Shown one piece after another: positions 9,337-34,395 of a stretch of 40,303 nt of DNA. The position numbers were made by a program, and so were the translations under genes. The notes under the pieces are model-generated. The model did not search any database. It worked only from the letters and a program-made list of their open reading frames with translations, and was not told the DNA's origin. Origin of the DNA: Planctomycetota bacterium (GTDB lineage Bacteria; Planctomycetota; Phycisphaerae; Phycisphaerales; Phycisphaeraceae). The DNA lies in NCBI GenBank assembly GCA_024279865.1, contig JAJRRC010000044.1, positions 1 through 40,303 on the forward strand. Reading direction: 5' to 3'. Positions within the stretch are counted from its first letter, which is position 1. Every line of letters starts with the position of its first letter.

Positions 9337-12186
<2,850 letters not shown>

Positions 12187-12306
12187 GTTCCGACCACGGA
12201 TCGATTCATTAAGCTCCAATATCTGGTTTTTTTGAATCTCACACTTTCCATTACATAAACACTGATTTTAATCAGGCGTTGATTCGGTAAAACGAATCAA
12301 CACCTT

Positions 12307-12415
12307 TGCCGGTGACCATAGTGACGGGGTCCCACCTGATCCCATTCCGAACTCAGTAGTTAAGCCCGTTACGCCGATGATACTGCCACTGCGGGAAAGT
12401 AGGTCATCGCCGGCT
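12307..12415 (+). rRNA. rrf: 5S ribosomal RNA
   Basis: About 109 bases, with terminal helix GCCGGTGA / TCATCGCCGGC and the conserved core CCCATTCCGAACTCAGTAGT, then TTAAGCCCGTTACGCCGATG and the loop-E side CTGCGGGAAAGTAGG. It starts about 120 bases after 23S and shares its transcript. Confidence 0.95.
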
Positions 12416-12637: not shown

Positions 12638-12942
12638 ATGAAACGCAAACGGCACAGTTCACAACAGGTGATTCGAAAGTTAGGTGAAGCGAAAGCTGCT
12701 CTGGCATCAGGCCAGCCCTTGGCGGCGGTCTGCCAAATGCTTGGCGTCAGCGAGCAGACTTATTACCGCCCCCGGAATTGGAAAAAACAGTACGGCAACA
12801 TGGATGCTGATGAAGCCAAACGGCTTGCCTCGCTTGAAGATGAGAACAGACTTCCGGGGGTCGGCTCAAGAAGTGGGTTGCAGATTTATCGTTGGACAAA
12901 GCGATCCTCACCGAGGCGTTGGATATTGCAAAAAACTTCTAA
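12638..12942 (+). pseudogene. IS3-type orfA, interrupted by two micro-insertions
   Basis: Starts MKRKRHSSQQVIRKLGEAKA with the IS3-type HTH (VCQMLGVSEQTYYR). A normal relative reads YYRWKKQYG; here nine bases (CCCCGGAAT, 12770-12778) split R and W without changing frame. Further on, ENR-RLKKWVADLSLDKAIL is split by eleven bases (CTTCCGGGGGT, 12851-12861), shifting frame by one. Removing both restores an orfA ending DIAKNF at TAA 12940. Both inserts are forms of the same G-rich unit seen elsewhere in this window. Confidence 0.85.
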
Positions 12943-13411
12943 GCCCGACGCAGCGACAGGAGATCGTCCCGCAGGTCCAGCATCGGATGGACTGTTCGCA
13001 ACGTCGGGCGTGCAAGACAACGGGAATGACTCGCAGCACGCAACGATAGACCTCTGTGCGCATGGATCGAGATCGAGCTTTAGTGAAAGCGATTTACGCA
13101 GTGGTCCGTCAACATCCCCGCTACGGCTACCGAATGGTAGCGGCGGAATTGCGGACTGATGGCTGGCAGGTCAATGCCAAACGCGTGTACCGTTTATGGC
13201 GACGTGAAGGATTGAAAGTGACACGAAAAACGCATAAAAACAAGTCTAAAGGCGGCTCAAAGAATAGTTGCCTCAATCGCCCGTCGATGCACAAGGATGA
13301 TGTATGGGCGATCGACTTTATTCCCGACAGTACGGCCTCGGGCAGCCCGCTGAAGATGCTTGTGGTCGAAGATGAATTCACCCGAGAGTGCCTGGCTCTG
13401 GAAGTTGGTGG
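12943..13411 (+). pseudogene. IS3-type orfB (DDE transposase), truncated
   Basis: Readable as LSPTQRQEIV, RRACKTTGMTRSTQR, a TAG stop at 13047-13049, then MDRDRALVKAIY, HPRYGYRMVAAELR, NAKRVYRLWRREGLKV and the start of the DDE core. Two catalytic aspartates are visible (VWAIDF and VVEDEFTRECLALEV). Transposase similarity stops at about 13411 and the third catalytic residue is absent. The following sequence to 13490 is open but unrelated. Not expected to be active. Confidence 0.85.
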
Positions 13412-13640
13412 CAGTCGTTTTGGCGTGCAAATCATTGAATGGAAATCAGTTACATCAAAAAAAACCGTTAACCGGACAGCAGTGACATGAGACCAAAATG
13501 TATTTTGCGTTCTTAAGGCCGATGGTGTCAGAGCATCGCGGCGGCGTGATGGTGTCATGGGGCAACAGTGCGTGAGACTCTTACAAGTGATGGATGCCAA
13601 GTTTTTCCCAGTTGCCTCTGAGAACCACACCTGCCATAGT

Positions 13641-14795: not shown

Positions 14796-15387
14796 CGCAT
14801 GGCACGCTCTGGCCTCCAATCGACCGTGGTTCAACCTCAAGCATGTGGATAACCTGTCTCTATCGCTGACGGTTTTGGGCTCTATCCTGTCACGCGTTTT
14901 TATTTTTTAAAAGACAAAAAGTTATTCATTTTTCTAAGAGTTGTTAAAATCGGTAGTTAGTAAAATATAAAAAAAAGTAACAATATTTGCCTATTCAGCT
15001 ATTGAATCCACAAGATGTTGTGGTTATATTGGTACGTTCACGGAGAAGTGCTTCATCAAACCCAAGTTTAAAACATGGGAAAAGGCATGATGCAGGATTC
15101 GGGAGACAAAAGGGTTCCGGGGGGTTCCGGGGGGTTCCGGGGGGGGCTGGGGGAAACTCGGGGGTATTCGGGGGAACCGGGGGGGAATTACAGGAGGCTT
15201 GGGGGGCTTTGGGATTTCGAGCGTGGTTGTGACCACTGAGCGCGGTTTTTGTGCTTAGCGCGATTGGTTTGCACGCTTTGAAGTGTTGAAATCTGAGAGG
15301 TGGAGTATTTTTTATCAGGCGAAGGTCCATGGTGGGTGGTTTGAATCAAAACTGCTTGGGCCGCGAAGGGACAGGGGTACATTGATT
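14796..15387. other. Intergenic region with a DnaA-box match, an AT-rich stretch and a G-rich tract
   Basis: No gene. A lone GCACGCTCTGG (14804-14814) resembles one end of the TAGAGC family. A perfect DnaA-box match TGTGGATAA (14844-14852) is followed by an AT-rich stretch (14895-14995). The G-rich tract at 15111-15210 follows. The dCTP deaminase fragment begins at 15388. Confidence 0.4.
15111..15210 (+). repeat. G-rich tract with repeated GGTTCCGGGG
   Basis: Three near-tandem GGGTTCCGGG units (about 15113-15143) lead into a run of G-blocks separated by short spacers, including GGGGGAAACTCGGGGG and GGGGGAACCGGGGGGG. More than four runs of at least four G occur close together, so the plus strand could form G-quadruplexes. 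The opening GACAAAAGGGTTCCGG recalls REP-type termini used by REP-associated transposases; that is an impression only. Confidence 0.6.
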
Positions 15388-15555: not shown

Positions 15556-15663
15556 TCGTGTTTGTGCGGTGAGCCTACGAGTTCACCTTTTCGGAAGGAA
15601 ACTTCCGGGGACCGTCTTTTTTTTATTTTTTATTTTCATTATATTTTTGAGGCAGAGTGATCA
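15556..15663 (+). promoter_or_regulatory. Leader of the ribonucleotide reductase gene
   Basis: Two foldbacks precede a long T/A-rich stretch: GGTGA/TCACC (15569-15588) and CGGAAG-GAAA-CTTCCG (15592-15607). The T run begins 11 bases after the second stem, too far for a standard terminator. The second stem ends in ACTTCCGGGG, the recurrent G-rich unit. No cobalamin riboswitch signature was recognised, although the enzyme uses that cofactor. Confidence 0.4.
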
Positions 15664-18600
15664 ATGAGGATCCCACGTAAATTCACCACGGAAGGCGTCG
15701 ACGTTTTTTCCACGGTCCAATGGACCCAGCGGGCCAGTAAGATTAGTAATCTTGATGGGTCGGTTGTGTTTGAAATGACCGATGCTCAGGTCCCCGCGGA
15801 CTGGTCCCAGTTAGCCACGGACATCATGGTCAGCAAGTACTTCCGCAAGGCCGGTGTTCCCCAGTACGATACAGACGGCAAGTTGCTCAAAGATGAGCAG
15901 GGAACTGTGGTTACCGGTCCAGAACGTTCGGTGAAACAAGTGGTGAATCGTCTGGCTGGTTGCTGGCGATACTGGGGTGAAACCCATGGCTATTTTGAAT
16001 CCACCCGTGATGCCCAAGCATTCTACGACGAACTGTCTTACATGATGCTCAACCAGATGTGCGCTCCAAACAGCCCACAGTGGTTTAACACAGGTCTGAA
16101 TTGGGCGTACGACCTGTCTGGCCCTGCTCAGGGACATTGGTTTACCGATCCTAAAAATGGGGAAACCAAACAATCCAGCGATGCTTATTCTCATCCTCAG
16201 CCTCATGCTTGCTTCATCCAATCCGTCGAAGACGATCTGGTCAATGAAGGCGGGATCATGAACCTTTGGACCCGTGAAGCACGCTTATTCAAATACGGCT
16301 CAGGCACTGGCTCGAACTTCTCCAACGTACGTGGCGCAGATGAAGCGCTCTCAGGCGGTGGCAAAAGCTCTGGCCTGATGAGTTTCCTGAAAATCGGTGA
16401 CCGAGCAGCAGGGGCCATCAAGTCCGGCGGCACAACTAGACGGGCCGCCAAAATGGTCTGCTTGAATCTGGATCATCCCGATATCGAAAACTTTGTAAAC
16501 TGGAAAGTTCGCGAAGAAATCAAAGTCGCAGCTCTTGTCGAAGGCTTTAAAGCCATCAAGGATCGCAAAACCAGCGAAACCGATGTGCAAACCATCGGCG
16601 AAACCGCTCGCGAACTGGGCTTGACCCTCGACTATGATTTCAACGGCGAAGCCTATCAAACCGTCAGTGGCCAAAACTCCAACAACTCCATTCGCATTCC
16701 CAATGAGTTCTTTGAAGCGGTGGATGAAGATGGCGATTGGGAATTGACCGGCCGAGTTGATGCCTCCTTTAAACGATCCGTCCCCGCTCGCAAACTCTGG
16801 GACCAAATCGGCTACGCTGCTTGGCGATGTGCGGACCCAGGCGTGCAGTTTGATACCACCATTAACGAGTGGCATACTTGCCCAGCTTCGGGACGCATCA
16901 ACGCGTCAAACCCTTGCTCTGAATATATGTTCTTGGATGACACCGCATGCAACTTGGCGTCCTTGAACTTGCTTAAATTTTATGATGCCAAGACGGGGCA
17001 ATTTGATCTCGAACGTTTTGAGCATGGCATCAACTTGTGGACCATCGTGCTGGAAATCAGTGTGCTGATGGCCTCGTTCCCCAGCAAGGAAATTGCACGT
17101 TTGAGCTATGATTTCCGAACGTTGGGTCTAGGCTATGCGAATATTGGTGCGATGTTGATGCAAGCGGGCATTGCGTATGACTCGCAAGAGGGCCGCGCTT
17201 TGTGCAGCTCGTTGACTGCGATTCTCACCGGCCGCAGTTATGCGACCAGTGCTCAATTGGCGGCAGAGCTTGGCCCGTTTCCCGGCTACTACAAGAACAA
17301 AGAACACATGTTGCGGGTCATCCGCAACCACCGACGGGCAGTCTATGGCGTGAGCCGAGATTCAGACCTTGCCCAAGGCCATGAGTTAGGCGATTATGAA
17401 GGACTCCGCATCAAGCCCATGCCTGTGGATGATTCGTACTTGGATCAAACCAATGGCGACTATCGCACACTCGCCAATGCGTCAGATATATTGCATCATG
17501 CACGCGTGGCTTGGGATGACGCGTTGCGATTGGGTGAACAGCATGGCTATCGTAATGCTCAAACCACCGTCATTGCTCCCACCGGAACCATCGGTCTATT
17601 GATGGATTGTGATACCACGGGTGTGGAGCCGGACTTCTCACTGGTGAAATTCAAAAAACTCGCAGGCGGCGGTTATTTCAAAATTGCCAACCAATCCATT
17701 CGCCCCGCACTGGCGGCTTTGGGTTATGCCGAGGCTGAAATCAAAGATATTTTGACTTATGTCATGGGAACATTGAACCTTAACGTTCCCTTTGAAGACG
17801 ATACTTTTGTGAATTGGCTCAAGGGTAAGGGACTCAATGAAGGCGATCTTCAGAAGGTCAATGACGTGGTGGCCTCGGTGTTTGATCTTGCGGGTGCTTT
17901 GACGCCTTGGACATTGGGCGAAGAAACCATTGAGCGTTTGGGTTTGACTGAACAGGCTCAGAAGCCCGGTTTTAATTTGCTCAAAATATGGGGACTCAAG
18001 GCTCCACAAATCGAAAAGCTCACCGAAGAAATCTGTGGCATGCAGACCATCGAAAAGGCCCCTCATCTCAAAGAAGAGCATTTGCCCGTGTTTGACTGTG
18101 CCAATACTTGTGGCCCCAAAGGCGAACGCTTTATCGAAGCCCAGGGACATATCCGCATGATGGGTGCTGCTCAGCCGTTTATCTCTGGTGCCATCAGCAA
18201 AACCATCAACCTGCCCAACACCGCCACCATCGAAGACATTGCCAAGTCCTATCGCCTAAGCTGGGACCTCGGCCTCAAGGCCAACGCTCTGTACCGCGAT
18301 GGTTGTAAACTCAGTCAGCCTCTCAATAGCAAAGTCGACGCAGACGAAGAAGTCGATGACGCAGACAATATCCAGGCAGGTCAAGATGCGGTGGCCTCGG
18401 ATGTCGCCAAGCTCGCCAGTGATGTTTCCAAACCAGAAGTGGAAATCAAGACCATTGAAAAAGTTGTCGAACGCATCATCGAACGCCCCATGCGGAAGCG
18501 ATTGCCTGATACCCGTCGTTCTCTGACCCATAAATTCAGCGTGGCAGGCCACGAAGGCTATATCACCGTGGGCTTGTACGAAGAAGGCGATCCCGGTGAA

Positions 18601-19212
18601 TTGTTTATCACCATGGCCAAAGAAGGTTCCACCATCGGCGGCCTGATGGATAGCCTCGGCACCGCCATCAGTATTGCACTTCAATACGGCGTGCCAACTG
18701 AATCCCTCGTCTCTAAATTCACCCATCAACGCTTCGAACCAGCAGGTATGACGCACAACCGCGATATCCCATTTGCCAAAAGCTTGGTGGACTACATCTT
18801 CCGATGGATGGGCATGGAATTTGTCCCAGGCTATCGTGCGGCCAATGCACCGCAACGGCCATCAGATTCAAAAAAAACGGCCCCCGCAAAAGCCAAAAGC
18901 CCCGCCAGTGAAACTACGCCAAGTAACGGGAATGGGAACGGCAAGACCAAATCTGCTCCCGCAGAAGTTGTGATTGCCAAGTCAGATCGTCTTCAAACGA
19001 TTTTGGGACGTGATCCGATCTCTCAGGCATCGGACGCTTCAGAAGCCCCGGCAAACCGAATGGAAACCGGCGGCACAGAGATGGCCATGACCGCAGCGAT
19101 GACTCAGATGCAGGCCGACGCACCAGCGTGCGATGTTTGTGGAACGATTACAGTCCGCAGTGGTACTTGTTACAAGTGCATGAACTGTGGTGCCTCCATG
19201 GGGTGTAGTTAA
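15664..19212 (+). CDS. nrdJ: Adenosylcobalamin-dependent (class II) ribonucleotide reductase
   Basis: Reduces ribonucleotides to deoxyribonucleotides using a cobalamin-generated thiyl radical, so it works with or without oxygen. The 1,182-residue length fits the large class II type. Visible blocks: [12 protein letters not shown] (about 137), [11 protein letters not shown] with a redox Cys (about 181), [13 protein letters not shown] (about 213), [20 protein letters not shown] with the thiyl Cys (about 418), [14 protein letters not shown] (about 628) and [13 protein letters not shown]. The C-terminal third holds a TSCPD-like domain ([19 protein letters not shown]), a low-complexity Ser/Ala/Pro linker and a Cys cluster (CDVCG...[14 protein letters not shown]) that binds zinc or re-reduces the active site. 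An acidic insert ([12 protein letters not shown]) precedes the TSCPD part. Start set by GAGG 11 bases upstream. Confidence 0.96.
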   Translation: [1182 protein letters not shown]

Positions 19213-19801: not shown

Positions 19802-22269
19802 TTGGCAAAACGGCGAACATCATCAACAAGTAGTAATCAGGATTCCCTATTCACGGATATGCCCGCGTCATCTGAGAATGGTTCCGGCGATATTTTTGAA
19901 GGTAATGGTGGGGGCATGATCGGGGGAACTTCCGGGGGGGCCGGCGGGATTGCCTTGCATGAAGTGGCGCAGACGCGGTACTTGAATTATGCGTTAAGCG
20001 TGATTACCAGCCGCGCGTTGCCTGACGTTCGTGACGGGTTAAAGCCTGTTCAGCGTCGCATTCTCTATACCATGTGGCAGCAGCGGATCACCGCTGATGC
20101 CAAGCATCGCAAGTGCGCCAAGGTTGTGGGTGACGTGATGGGTAATTACCATCCGCATGGCGATTCCTCGATTTACGATGCCTTGGTTCGCATGGCTCAG
20201 CCGTTTGCGATGCGTGTGCCGTTGGTCGATGGGTCGGGCAACTTTGGGTCACTTGATGGCGACAATGCTGCTGCGATGCGGTACACCGAGTGTCGGACTA
20301 CGCCGATTAGTTCAGCCATGCTTGAAGAGTTGACCCAGGGGACGGTTCATTTTGCTCCCAGTTACGACGGGACCAAATCCGAGCCAGTCGTGTTGCCCAC
20401 ACGCGTGCCGAACCTTTTAATCAATGGTGCGACGGGCATTGCCGTGGGCATGGCCACGAACATTCCGCCCCACAATCCCAAAGAAGTTTGCAACGCGTTG
20501 GTCAAGCTGCTGGACAACCCAGAGCTGAAGACTTATCAGTTGCTCGCCAAGGACGCGATCACGGGTCCGGATTTTCCCACCGGCGGCCAGATTCTCAACA
20601 CCCGTGAAGAATTACAAGAAATCTACAAGTCAGGCTCCGGCCCGATCAAGCTTCGCGCTCGATGGGAAAGGGTGAAGTCAAACGTTCCAGTAAGTTCCTG
20701 TACATCACGGAAATTCCTTATAGCTTAAACAAATCGGTCCTCGTGGAGCGGATTGCTCAAATTGTCATTGACCGCAAGTTGCCGTTGTTATTGGATATTC
20801 GAGACGTTTCGACGGAAGACGTGCGGATTGCGTTGGAGTTAAAGAAGGATGCCGACGAGCAGAAGGTGCTTGCATATTTGTTTAAGCACACGCCGTTACA
20901 GACGAATTTTAACGTGAATCTGACATGTTTGATTCCCACGGAAAATCCACAAGTCGGTCGGCCCGAGAAGTGTGATTTACGTGAAATCCTCCAGAATTTT
21001 TTAAACTTTCGGTTAGACGTCGTCACACGACGGCTCGAATACGAACACAATCAGCTTAACAAACGCATCCACATGCTCGAAGGCTTTGCGTTGGTCTTTG
21101 ATGCCTTAGACGAGATCATCCGTATCATCCGTCGCAGTGACGGCAAAGCCGATGCCGCATCTAAGATCATGGCCAAGTTCTCCAAGCTTGACGCTGAGCA
21201 GACCGATGCCATCTTAGAACTCAAACTTTACCGTTTGGCAAAGTTGGAAATCAACATTGTTCTAGCAGAGCTCAAAGAAAAACGCGCTCGGGTCAAGGCC
21301 ATTGAAAAACTGTTGGCTGAATCCAATGCCCAGGGACGTTGGCTGATTGTTCGCAATGAACTGTTGGAAATCCGGGACACTTACGGGAAAAAAGACAAAC
21401 GTCGTACCATGATCCAGGCAGTGGACGATGAGCCTGAATATGCTGAAGAAGATTTTATCATTGCAGAGGATTGTTACTTCCTCGTGACCCGTGACGGCTG
21501 GGTCAAGCGGCAAAAGAATCTCATTGATGTGAAAAAAGCCCGCTTACGCGAGGGAGATTCTGTCCTCGCAGTTGGCGTGGGTAGCACGCGGTCGACGGCG
21601 GTCTTCTTCTCGAGCTTTGGAGTGGCATATACTTGCCGCATTTTGGATCTACCAGCGACGACGGGGCATGGCGAGCCGGTGCAAAAATTGTTCCGTCTTA
21701 AAGATGGCGAAATCATCGTGGCTGCTCTGAGTTTAGACCCCCGGGTGATTGGTGATATCAAAGAAAACCCCAAAGATACTGAACACGCACCGCCTGTGCA
21801 TGGCGTGGCGGTGAGTCATGACGGCTTTGGGATTCGTTTTGGTCTTGAGCCGTTTGTGGAGCCCAGTACCCGCGCGGGCCGTAAGTTTGCCCGTCCCAAG
21901 AAGGGGGTTACCATCGTGGGTGTTGATTCCATTACAGGCGATGAAACCATCATTGCCGTCTCACGCCAACGGCGGACACTGCTCTGCGAAGTGGCAGAAC
22001 TGAACTATGTCAGCGGTCCCGCCAAGGGGGTCATGCTCATCAAACTCGGCAAAGATGATGACCTGCTAGGCTACATTGTAGCTGTGGATAGTCGTGATAC
22101 GTTGACGGTGAAAACATCCATGGGCGGCGAACAGCGAATCAATACCGCCAAGTATGAACTCACGTCTCGCGGCGGAAAAGGACGCGAAATTATTAAACGG
22201 GGTGCCTTGACACGCATTATCCCCAATGAATTGCCTGTGATTACCGAATTGGAAAAACTCGACGGATGA
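19802..22269 (+). CDS. gyrA: Type IIA topoisomerase subunit A (GyrA/ParC), one-base frameshift
   Basis: Breakage-rejoining subunit of DNA gyrase or topoisomerase IV. The N-terminal part reads to about 20660: ALSVITSRALPDVRDGLKPV, HPHGDSSIYDALVRMAQ (quinolone-determining region with Ser and Asp at the positions of E. coli 83 and 87) and MRYTECRTT with the catalytic Tyr (about 163). The remainder (KGEVKRSSKFLYITEIPYS onward, coiled coil, beta-pinwheel) is in another frame. One extra A in the run GGGAAAGGG at 20653-20661 gives RWEKGEVKRSS and joins both, about 822 residues. A gyrA box-like SRGGKG is near the C-terminus, so gyrase is slightly favoured over ParC. A Gly-rich N-terminal linker contains the G-rich unit. 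TTG start, with AGGGAGG about 9 bases upstream. Confidence 0.9.
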
Positions 22270-32813: not shown

Positions 32814-33071
32814 ATGCGTTGGGCCCATGGTCTTAACGTGGAATGTACACAATTACAGAAATGGGCGGTGGCTGGCATTGGCCTTGGAGGGTGTGCGATT
32901 TCTTTCATTACACCGAAAGAAAAAAGCCCTTATAAGTATGCCGCTGCCACTGCGATTATGCTGACTGGTGCATGGATGGGGATCAAGGGCTGGAAAGTAT
33001 TGATTCGGTCAAATTCGCCCAAATCACTTCCCCTTCGCCAACTCAACAAGCAGATCCAGCCCACGGTTTAG
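32814..33071 (+). CDS. Possible small membrane protein
   Basis: An 85-residue frame with two hydrophobic stretches (WAVAGIGLGGCAISFIT and AAATAIMLTGAWMGI) separated by a charged turn (PKEKSPYK). No family is recognised and no Shine-Dalgarno is seen. Its last 48 bases overlap the convergent aminotransferase gene. It could be real or chance; it is listed because the 310-base gap holds nothing else. Confidence 0.3.
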   Translation: MRWAHGLNVECTQLQKWAVAGIGLGGCAISFITPKEKSPYKYAAATAIMLTGAWMGIKGWKVLIRSNSPKSLPLRQLNKQIQPTV

Positions 33072-34238
33072 CATGTCTGAATCGCAGGCGTAGCTGATGC
33101 GGAAGTGGGTGTCTTGGTTGCTAAAGACATTGCCTGGGATGAGGAGCATGCCTTTGTCGACGGCACGTTCGACGAACTGACCGCCGGTGAGGCCTAGATG
33201 TTCGGGGACTTTGGGGAAGGCATAGAACGCGCCGCCTGGGGTGGTGAGTTCGTAGTGGCCTGACAGTCGCTTCACGACGTGGTCACGTTTGAGCTGGTAA
33301 GCATCAATGTGCTGCTGCATGTCCACGTCCAGAGCGGTGATGCCTGCTTCCTGGACCATTGAGGGGGCGCAGACAAAGGAGTATTGCTGGAGCTTGGTCA
33401 TTTGCTCGATGATGGGGCGGGGGCCCACGGCATAGCCTAGTCGCCAACCTGTCATGCCATAGGTTTTGCTGTAGCCTCGCAGGAGAATGATGTTTTGCGA
33501 ATGGTCTGCGGGCGAAGGGCAGCGTTTTTTTGCATTTTGGCCGGGAGAACTACCGGAAGAACTACCGGGGGCGGGGGAACTTCCGGGGGGGCGGCTTATT
33601 TTTTCGTAGCAAAACTCGTCATAAATTTCATCTGACAGAATTAAGAAGTTGTGCTGCTGGGCCAACTGGACCATTTCACGACAGGTTTCGTCTGAAGCGA
33701 CCACGCCCGTGGGGTTCGAGGGGGAATTGAATAATAGTAATTTGGTACGGGGGGTAATGTGTGGCGTGAGTCGTTTAGCAGTGAGCTGAAAATCTGGATA
33801 GGTATCGACATAGACAGGGGTCGCTCCGGCGAGGGTCACCAAGTGCTTGTACATGACGAAGTATGGGTCGGGAATGAGCACTTCATCGCCTGGTCCCACG
33901 CAGGTCATGAGTGTGAGCAGTAGGCCGCCTGAGACACCACTGGTGACTAGGGATGCGGATTGGTTTTGCAGGTCCCAGTGGGGTAGTTCTTCGTTGAGAT
34001 GTTGGTGGATGCGTTCCCGTAGAGCTGCTTGTCCTTGGGTGACGGTATAGCGGTTGTGTCCTGCGTTGATGGCATTGATGGCGGTTTGTTTGATCTCTTG
34101 AGGGACATCAAAGTCTGGTTGTCCGATGGAGAGGTTGATGGGGTTGACTAGTTTGGCTCCGAGGTCAAAGACTCGCCTGATGCCTGAAGCGTCCATGGCA
34201 TGAAGGCGGTCGGTGATAAATCGTTGCGGATCAAACAT
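33024..34238 (-). CDS. Class I/II PLP-dependent aminotransferase with a Pro/Ser insert
   Basis: A 404-residue fold-type I aminotransferase of the aspartate aminotransferase-like group, cytoplasmic. Visible: INLSIGQPDFDVP (about 35), LFNSPSNPTGV (about 168), ILSDEIYDEF with the PLP-contacting Asp and Tyr, GYSKTYGMTGWRLGY with the Schiff-base Lys, and FRISYACD with the substrate-carboxylate Arg near the end. Between EKISRP and ILLRG there is an extra low-complexity stretch (PPGSSPAPGSSSGSSPGQ) coded by tandem copies of the G-rich unit. The ATG at 34238 has AAGG 8 bases upstream. The amino-acid substrate cannot be told from sequence. Confidence 0.92.
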   Translation of the reverse strand: MFDPQRFITDRLHAMDASGIRRVFDLGAKLVNPINLSIGQPDFDVPQEIKQTAINAINAGHNRYTVTQGQAALRERIHQHLNEELPHWDLQNQSASLVTSGVSGGLLLTLMTCVGPGDEVLIPDPYFVMYKHLVTLAGATPVYVDTYPDFQLTAKRLTPHITPRTKLLLFNSPSNPTGVVASDETCREMVQLAQQHNFLILSDEIYDEFCYEKISRPPGSSPAPGSSSGSSPGQNAKKRCPSPADHSQNIILLRGYSKTYGMTGWRLGYAVGPRPIIEQMTKLQQYSFVCAPSMVQEAGITALDVDMQQHIDAYQLKRDHVVKRLSGHYELTTPGGAFYAFPKVPEHLGLTGGQFVERAVDKGMLLIPGNVFSNQDTHFRISYACDSDMLNRGLDLLVELAKGK

Positions 34239-34395
34239 GGTCAAAACCTTTTTTGCGGGGATGTGTATTTAAATTTCTTTTCGGCGCATAGCATAAACTT
34301 GCGATTATTGCGGTGTCAATCATGACGGGTCAATAGTCGCAAGCCTATTTCCTTGTATACCCAACGGGTATGAGAATGTCCGCGATGAAAGTTCT

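Follow-up and report, generated by a model that had tools for sequence, protein, structure and literature searches.

Two short G-rich inserts in an IS3-type remnant as possible records of the birth of a dispersed repeat unit in a Planctomycetota genome

How did two short G-rich sequences come to interrupt a single transposase gene? The question is raised by the window analysed here, a stretch of 40,303 nucleotides from a Planctomycetota bacterium. To our knowledge, the birth of short repeats at new sites is an open question, and slippage models presuppose a seed that already exists. The window contains a 23S rRNA gene (9337-12188) and a 5S rRNA gene (12308-12415), and an IS3-type remnant begins within about 150-220 bases behind the latter, with the following features.

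12638-13159, plus strand: orfA of the IS3-type remnant, an open frame that continues beyond insert 2 with the frame shifted (Pfam HTH_Tnp_1, E 1.2e-10).
12770-12778, minus strand: insert 1, CCCCGGAAT, which is a ATTCCGGGG unit on the minus strand; net +9 bases, missing in 21 of 22 aligned orfA.
12851-12861, plus strand: insert 2, CTTCCGGGGGT; net +11 bases, breaking the frame; the site is empty in the own-genome copy L012 and in 18 of 22 aligned orfA.
13056-13490, plus strand: start of orfB, an open frame (Pfam HTH_21, E 1.2e-14).

The orfA carries the helix-turn-helix transposase domain that is a feature of the IS3 family (HTH_Tnp_1, E 1.2e-10). The Pfam search of the frame 13056-13490 found HTH_21 only and not the complete DDE integrase domain of an IS3 orfB, and the element was therefore taken as a remnant; the IS-like sequence ends near 13440 as judged by eye. 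Insert 1 has a single exact placement, given the CGCTGG of most relatives, and for insert 2 the net length is certain while the edges are ambiguous by 1-3 bases. The initial annotation had described nine extra bases at 12770-12778 and eleven at 12851-12861 as opposite-strand forms of one unit, and both statements were confirmed, as both inserts are TTCCGGGG units, insert 1 on the minus and insert 2 on the plus strand. Its picture of a clean insertion of 9-11 bp was refined: the inserts share TTCCGGGG as a common core and vary between 8 and 11 bases, and tandem arrays exist beside single units.

Besides the window copy, seven other DNA matches to the same IS were found in the genome of this bacterium (G000). 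One of them, L011 (G000:C89; 85% identical to the window IS), is without exactly the 9 bases of insert 1 and likewise lacks a unit where insert 2 would be, and another, L012 (G000:C20; 83% identical), has net 11 bases fewer at insert 2. An alignment of 22 orfA was composed of the window copy and copies from the own genome, from genomes of the family and from one genome of another family of the same order; L012, which covers the second place only, and L388, a 23rd row consisting of an orfB piece, were left out of it. Insert 1 was present in the window copy alone (1 of 22), and a unit at the place of insert 2 was present in four of the 22, namely the window copy and three copies of G022, a genome of another genus, the remaining 18 being empty. 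Thus, the relatives lacking the inserts, for which the initial annotation had recommended a search, occur in the own genome as well as among the 22 orfA. Where inserts 1 and 2 and the G022 insertions sit, the empty copies have neither a run of four G or C nor a unit, and, as read from these alignments, the empty relatives show insertion at seedless places.

All three G022 copies that cover the insert-2 place carry net +8 bases there, compared with +11 in the window. The initial annotation had foreseen a relative with the same extra bases as the contrary observation, and such relatives were found in part, as the G022 copies have a unit at the same codon, although they are not intact and differ in length and edges. 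They are 58-66% identical to the window IS, and the copies closer to the window IS as well as those closer to the G022 IS are empty at this place. Because the length and edges differ, the identity is low and the closer copies are empty, an independent second insertion at a preferred site is a better explanation than common descent. In addition, a 10-base insertion, CTTCCGGGGG, was found in orfB in 2 of 10 rows, both from G022 (2 of 2 G022 copies), and net +8 bases in orfB in the IS copy of G064 (1 of 14 rows). An IS copy of the single-contig genome G066 has +9 bases near its end (1 of 12 rows), which looks like a duplication of the native CCCCGGAA and would then reflect local growth and not birth. 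Other matches to TTCCGGGG or CCCCGGAA in the IS stretches are codons of native PGSPW or PAPEAW motifs or were not compared. Clean unit insertions were thus seen in IS copies of three genera, the window's included. Neither constant ends nor a target-site duplication, by which a transposon would be known, could be recognised in these events, which are only five in number, have net lengths of 9, 11, 8, 10 and 8 bases and differ in their edges.

The three G022 IS copies L373, L374 and L375 are 96-99% alike, lie at separate places and all have the frame-breaking unit in orfA. IS copies with broken genes seem to have multiplied in G022, and perhaps moved in trans. Elsewhere G022 has no excess of the unit (5 copies of TTCCGGGG vs 11.3 expected in 400 kb of 4.6 Mb), and the whole genome gave no double-unit hits. 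For this reason the G022 IS probably arrived already carrying its unit insertions, which would make IS elements carriers of the unit.

The abundance of the unit was measured in the window and beyond. The window has 10 copies of TTCCGGGG vs 1.87 expected, a number reached in 0 of 100 shuffles; one copy (12099-12107) falls within the 23S rRNA gene, and therefore not every copy of the unit is an insert. In a first 412-kb sample of the genome, TTCCGGGG together with its complement was the most over-represented frequent 8-mer (188 vs 12.5 expected). In 61 pieces with 1,202,037 bases (35% of the genome), it was observed 479 times vs 31.8 expected under an order-3 Markov model, and three rearrangements of its letters were observed 55, 84 and 59 times vs 53, 69 and 82 expected. 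Similarly, ATTCCGGGG has 93 copies genome-wide vs 12 for the reversed control. Twenty of the 61 pieces were picked around ATTCCGGGG sites and part of 40 others were likewise chosen to contain them, all 20 contigs of the related genome G001 were picked for their arrays, and the 20 pieces of the related genome G015 came in part from earlier hits for other genes and for the rest by contig number; since pieces were partly picked around units, the densities are not unbiased.

The units of the own-genome sample form 292 arrays, of which 181 have a single unit, 66 two, 26 three, 11 four and 8 more. The spacing of units ranges from 9 to 30 and is mostly 9-14, with 12 prevailing in genes and a mixture between genes. 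Two examples lie in the window downstream of the IS remnant.

15112-15144, plus strand: array of three units with period 10, given by a tandem repeat finder; units at 15115, 15125 and 15135, with further G-rich runs to about 15210.
15603-15610, plus strand: single unit upstream of the ribonucleotide reductase gene (15664-19212).

Within an array, the final G-run exceeds the inner ones in length (mean 6.58 vs 5.34 in this genome, 5.6 vs 5.04 in G015 and 5.71 vs 5.19 in G001). Neighbouring spacers within arrays were identical in 36 of 76 cases in this genome vs 2.6% of pairs drawn from different arrays, and in 13 of 24 and 9 of 36 cases in G001 and G015, respectively. As spacers are common within and not between arrays, the arrays seem to grow by local tandem duplication, and we consider array growth by local duplication well supported.

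When 66 own-genome pieces were compared with each other, CCGGGG, CCCCGG or five consecutive G or C were present at 16 of 81 indel places, some of the 16 being the same place counted on both strands. The CCCCCGG insert of the F1 family was placed where a CCCG already stood; it is weak evidence for a birth and was assigned to local growth. Indels of the hairpin families F2, F3 and F4 were considered as unit insertions and rejected, and they are uncounted, as the alignments show changes on both hairpin arms. This genome has many copies of a dispersed hairpin repeat (AGAATCCGACTCTTCGG..., for example at L272 7406, L274 12377 and L264 16315), the stem length of which varies by changes on both arms. 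A hairpin motif was found within 200 bases upstream of 15 of the 292 arrays (5.1% vs 1.4% in a random control) and a unit within 60 bases after 4 of 100 hairpin-like motifs, so that a composite element of hairpin and array is at most a minor class. A further repeat of a different kind lies at L248 12480-14123 (G000:C1, near 72.5 kb), where 26 copies of GTGTAATCGATCCCG are spaced by 65-66 bases with varying sequence between them, resembling a CRISPR array.

The distribution of the unit was followed in other genomes. Double units were found in 37 of 51 genomes of the family with 0 to 390 hits each, compared with 5 hits in all for the reversed control; G000 and G015 are the two unit-richest of the 51, the single-contig G066 has 40 double-unit hits and G046 has 96 array hits. 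In a class-wide draw of 160 genomes, hits occurred in 6 of 8 members of the family, 7 of 17 of the order's other families and, with a single hit each, 2 of the remaining 135 genomes of the class. A scan of a named collection for triple arrays gave at least 103 stretches, and among the matches listed (80 contigs of at least 103) 56 are named as Phycisphaera, Phycisphaerae, Phycisphaerales or Phycisphaeraceae, 9 as other Planctomycetota and 15 as other phyla, the last including Streptomyces, Bordetella and Lyngbya. The unit marks one order of Planctomycetota, which is probably the Phycisphaerales, going by the names of the relatives. A comparison of orthologues of G001 and G043 for calling insertions was given up because the two are too diverged and fragmented.

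The effect of the units on protein genes was examined with genes called by our own open-frame scorer instead of a published caller (907 genes, making up 80% of the sample). Within called genes lie 289 of the 479 units; the 190 between them (40%) fall in 20% of the sample, where six control motifs had 9-33% of their copies. The spacing of units was a multiple of three in 122 of 128 intervals in genes vs 24 of 58 between genes (one gene-edge interval left out), in 29 of 29 vs 23 of 52 in G015, and in 7 of 8 vs 16 of 40 in G001, so that the bias recurs in two further genera. The linkers encoded by the units include PPE, PPGS, TSGG and LPGA. The units in genes also have a frame preference (FRG frame 11 of 107, PRN/PRK frame 6 of 131), but this is weak evidence, since the control motifs are frame-biased as well, and the spacing was relied on instead. 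Thus, the arrays in genes are translated and filtered, and almost only frame-keeping ones are found. Two cases in the window are given below.

19930-19940, plus strand: unit near the start of a gyrA-like gene, read in frame as GGTSGGAGG.
33541-33591, plus strand: array with period 12, lying opposite to an aminotransferase gene encoded on the minus strand (33024-34244) and read as SRPPGSSPAPGSSSGSSPGQ.

The gyrA-like gene does not run in a single frame but in two (19802-20728 and 20662-22269), and the break at 20600-20760, which is without a unit, is an assembly error or a real frameshift. The aminotransferase has about 21 residues more than its best solved relatives around its array. Compared with solved structures, GltD has 11 additional residues, to which the unit supplies PPEV, and a cysteine-desulfurase-like protein has extra residues at or around its unit. 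A DnaK-type protein (L034 5022-7001) contains 48 extra residues between two conserved stretches of a highly conserved domain, which are in part a unit array and in part the dispersed hairpin repeat. The unit in MiaB was rejected as a clean insertion, as that loop varies across the whole family and the unit there shows the use of a permissive loop. The initial annotation had suggested that some process spreads very short G-rich units, and had proposed to look for the unit as an indel in other genes; the unit was found as an indel in other IS copies and as in-frame segments of conserved proteins, and these, together with the empty relatives, support such a process.

The arrays are polar with respect to gene ends and to each other. 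Of 58 intergenic arrays whose G-run end faces a stop codon in this genome, 18 have that end no more than 2 bases from the codon; for starts the number is 2 of 59, and the opposite array end comes this close in 0 of 62 and 0 of 62 cases, respectively. The corresponding numbers for the G-run end are 3 of 35 for stops vs 0 of 37 for starts in G015 (other side 1 of 65) and 3 of 20 vs 0 of 23 in G001 (other side 0 of 44). At the stop-adjacent arrays, the C-rich strand is the coding strand. Neighbouring arrays less than 100 bases apart in this genome were divergent in 24 cases, convergent in none and oriented the same way in 27, and when all pairs were counted and not neighbours alone, 28 were divergent vs 0 convergent. 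Inserts 1 and 2, which are 74 bases apart, obey this divergent rule. Elsewhere, the divergent, convergent and same-way neighbours numbered 4, 3 and 8 in G015 and 1, 5 and 2 in G001. The arms of 28 divergent neighbouring pairs less than 200 bases apart were only marginally more alike than shuffled arms (permutation p 0.053). Degenerate relics were in excess on the 5' side of arrays in this genome (70 vs 29 between genes and 88 vs 26 in genes), which was not replicated in G015 (29 vs 22 and 25 vs 22) or between genes in G001 (23 vs 23; in genes 9 vs 1). Furthermore, CGG and TGG are 4.8 and 1.9 times commoner directly after the G-run of the unit than after other G-runs in this genome, and 2.3 and 2.2 times commoner in G015.

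To account for the two inserts, we propose, with about an even chance of being right, that they are two separate births, by template switch, of a short G-rich unit with the core TTCCGGGG, which is at work in this bacterium and in the order to which it belongs, and that such births are followed by tandem growth. A nascent DNA strand would briefly switch its template onto a unit elsewhere, or fold back on GGAA/TTCC, would copy about one unit and would then return. The newborn unit could thereafter grow by slipped-strand tandem duplication, and the dead IS would have acted as neutral DNA recording two births. Copying CCCCCGGAA back from a TTCC primer predicts divergent pairs, as observed with 24 divergent and 0 convergent neighbours; as the full explanation, fold-back copying was rejected, because the divergent excess is absent in G015 and G001 and the similarity of the arms is marginal (p 0.053). 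No donor for insert 1 or 2 was identified, and no birth was seen in real time. Known agents of spread or instability were also considered. The reverse transcriptase family PF00078 was not found in G000 and G015 (about 94-96% completeness, one family model), which speaks against retroposon-like spread driven by reverse transcriptase as the general cause. Y1 transposase was not found in G046 despite its 96 array hits, and a REP-type Y1 transposase was rejected as the driver, as its count does not follow the number of units. Loss of MutS was rejected as well, MutS being present in G000 and G015.

That the same IS codon is struck in two genera would not be expected from plain random template switching, and this coincidence together with the CGG/TGG excess after the unit argues for some target preference. 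A dedicated micro-mobile element, with an enzyme of the host or of an IS placing TTCCGGGG-like units at favoured sites in front of NCGG or TGG, would explain the shared codon of the window IS and the G022 copies, the enriched flanks in this genome and G015, and the presence of the same unit across many genera. We nevertheless consider it unlikely, given that the insert length varies from 8 to 11 and neither a constant edge nor a target duplication could be recognised in so few events, that a search of the two unit-richest genomes gave no PF00078 and the Y1 transposase count does not follow the unit count, and that the CGG excess may partly stem from expanded CGGGGG runs. Improbable, too, is an ordinary microsatellite, whose units would arise solely by slippage from G-runs already at the site; the local look of array growth, the F1 insert at an existing CCCG and the resemblance of the G066 insert to a CCCCGGAA duplication agree with it, but the empty sites corresponding to inserts 1 and 2 and to the G022 insertions lack a unit as well as any four-base G or C run, which already strains this reading.

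Selection for a function, whether C-rich tails after stop codons for Rho loading, hairpins or G-quadruplexes, could spread or keep the units and would suit the G-run ends adjoining stop codons (18 of 58 vs 2 of 59 at starts and 0 of 124 on the other side, weaker in G015 and G001). We hold it to be rather improbable, as single units account for 181 of the 292 arrays and arrays of four are not in excess, called genes contain 289 of the 479 units and a dead IS two, and the number of hits varies between 0 and 390 among genomes of the same family. That the extra bases were ancestral in the window IS and lost in relatives is suggested only by the units of the G022 copies at the place of insert 2, and is very improbable, as precise loss would be needed in several lineages with 18 of 22 copies and L012 empty, the lengths and edges of the G022 and window units differ, and insert 1 is unique to the window copy. 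An assembly or sequencing artefact might be suspected from the 122-contig assembly and from units within 60 bases of the end in 4 of 20 G001 contigs (L172, L176, L180 and L184), and is barely credible in view of frame-keeping in genes, the 40 double-unit hits of the single-contig G066 and the recurrence of the unit in many separate genomes and named assemblies. The G001 contigs with a unit near the end raise the point that arrays may themselves fragment assemblies.

Template-switch birth followed by tandem growth therefore remains our preferred reading. We offer as a doubtful though conceivable extension that a unit of 8-11 bases, shorter than the mobile elements discussed here, spreads itself throughout the lineage with a target preference (the same codon in two genera; NCGG/TGG flanks), is carried by IS elements between genera, forms arrays and remodels the proteome through in-frame linkers. 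The IS copies of three genera record clean seedless insertions of one unit and other genomes of the order have none, and the rate, the target and the genetic requirement of the process are therefore testable. In addition, conserved proteins, a DnaK-type chaperone among them, receive linkers from the units, and in this way selfish or mutational DNA would give rise directly to new protein segments.

Among known systems, the small dispersed repeats of cyanobacteria, reportedly 21-27 bp long and the subject of Elhai's 'Very small mobile repeated elements' of 2008, resemble the unit in being very short dispersed units described as mobile, going by that title. At that size they would be two to three times longer. 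The G-rich heptamer repeats of Xanthomonas and Nostoc, the latter of which we take to be the STRR sequences, are closer in composition. The heptamers are given as GGGAATC and GGGGA(C/T)T in the available portion of PMC4692102 and, as far as described there, share with our unit short G-rich units in small genome-wide arrays that are commoner between genes and involve gene ends, and an array length that varies between relatives. The genome-wide spread with an intergenic excess is found here as well (190 of 479 units, 40%, in 20% of the sample). The differences from that portion of PMC4692102 are that the heptamers have a seven-base unit with a constant period, whereas here TTCCGGGG is joined to a variable spacer with a spacing of 9-30; that they prefer four units, while here 181 arrays are single and 11 quadruple; and that they lie downstream of genes with the G-rich strand coding, while here the C-rich strand is the sense strand after stops. 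Furthermore, they are described there as generally without association to insertion sequences, and, unlike them, our unit has many arrays inside genes and occurs as single insertions in IS copies.

The TAACTGA direct repeats of Beggiatoaceae, in the part of PMC4679880 available, likewise consist of one short unit in arrays with a patchy distribution and no evident spreading mechanism. They differ in their fixed 7-base unit and in lying, for the most part, directly before start codons in the genome that was described first, and that part of the paper describes no insertion event, unlike those of the unit here. Quasi-palindrome template-switch mutations would give divergent pairs, but the ones in the portion of PMC3820800 at hand are local and occur at an existing imperfect inverted repeat in yeast, whereas here a unit spreads genome-wide. 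A word search of the main text of the Phycisphaerae genome paper PMC11266412 gave none of the words repeat, insertion, low-complexity and G-rich, and searches among openly licensed papers, for the unit in connection with the phylum or class and for repeats in the phylum, brought up no description of the repeat, though it may be in print elsewhere. Rickettsia palindromic elements, according to the available portion of PMC10969869, insert in frame into unrelated protein genes, as the unit does here, but they measure about 150 bp compared with 8-12 bp here (8-11 in the IS copies). The closest known kinds are the G-rich short repeats of Xanthomonas and Nostoc and the Rickettsia palindromic elements, from each of which the unit departs in a defining feature.
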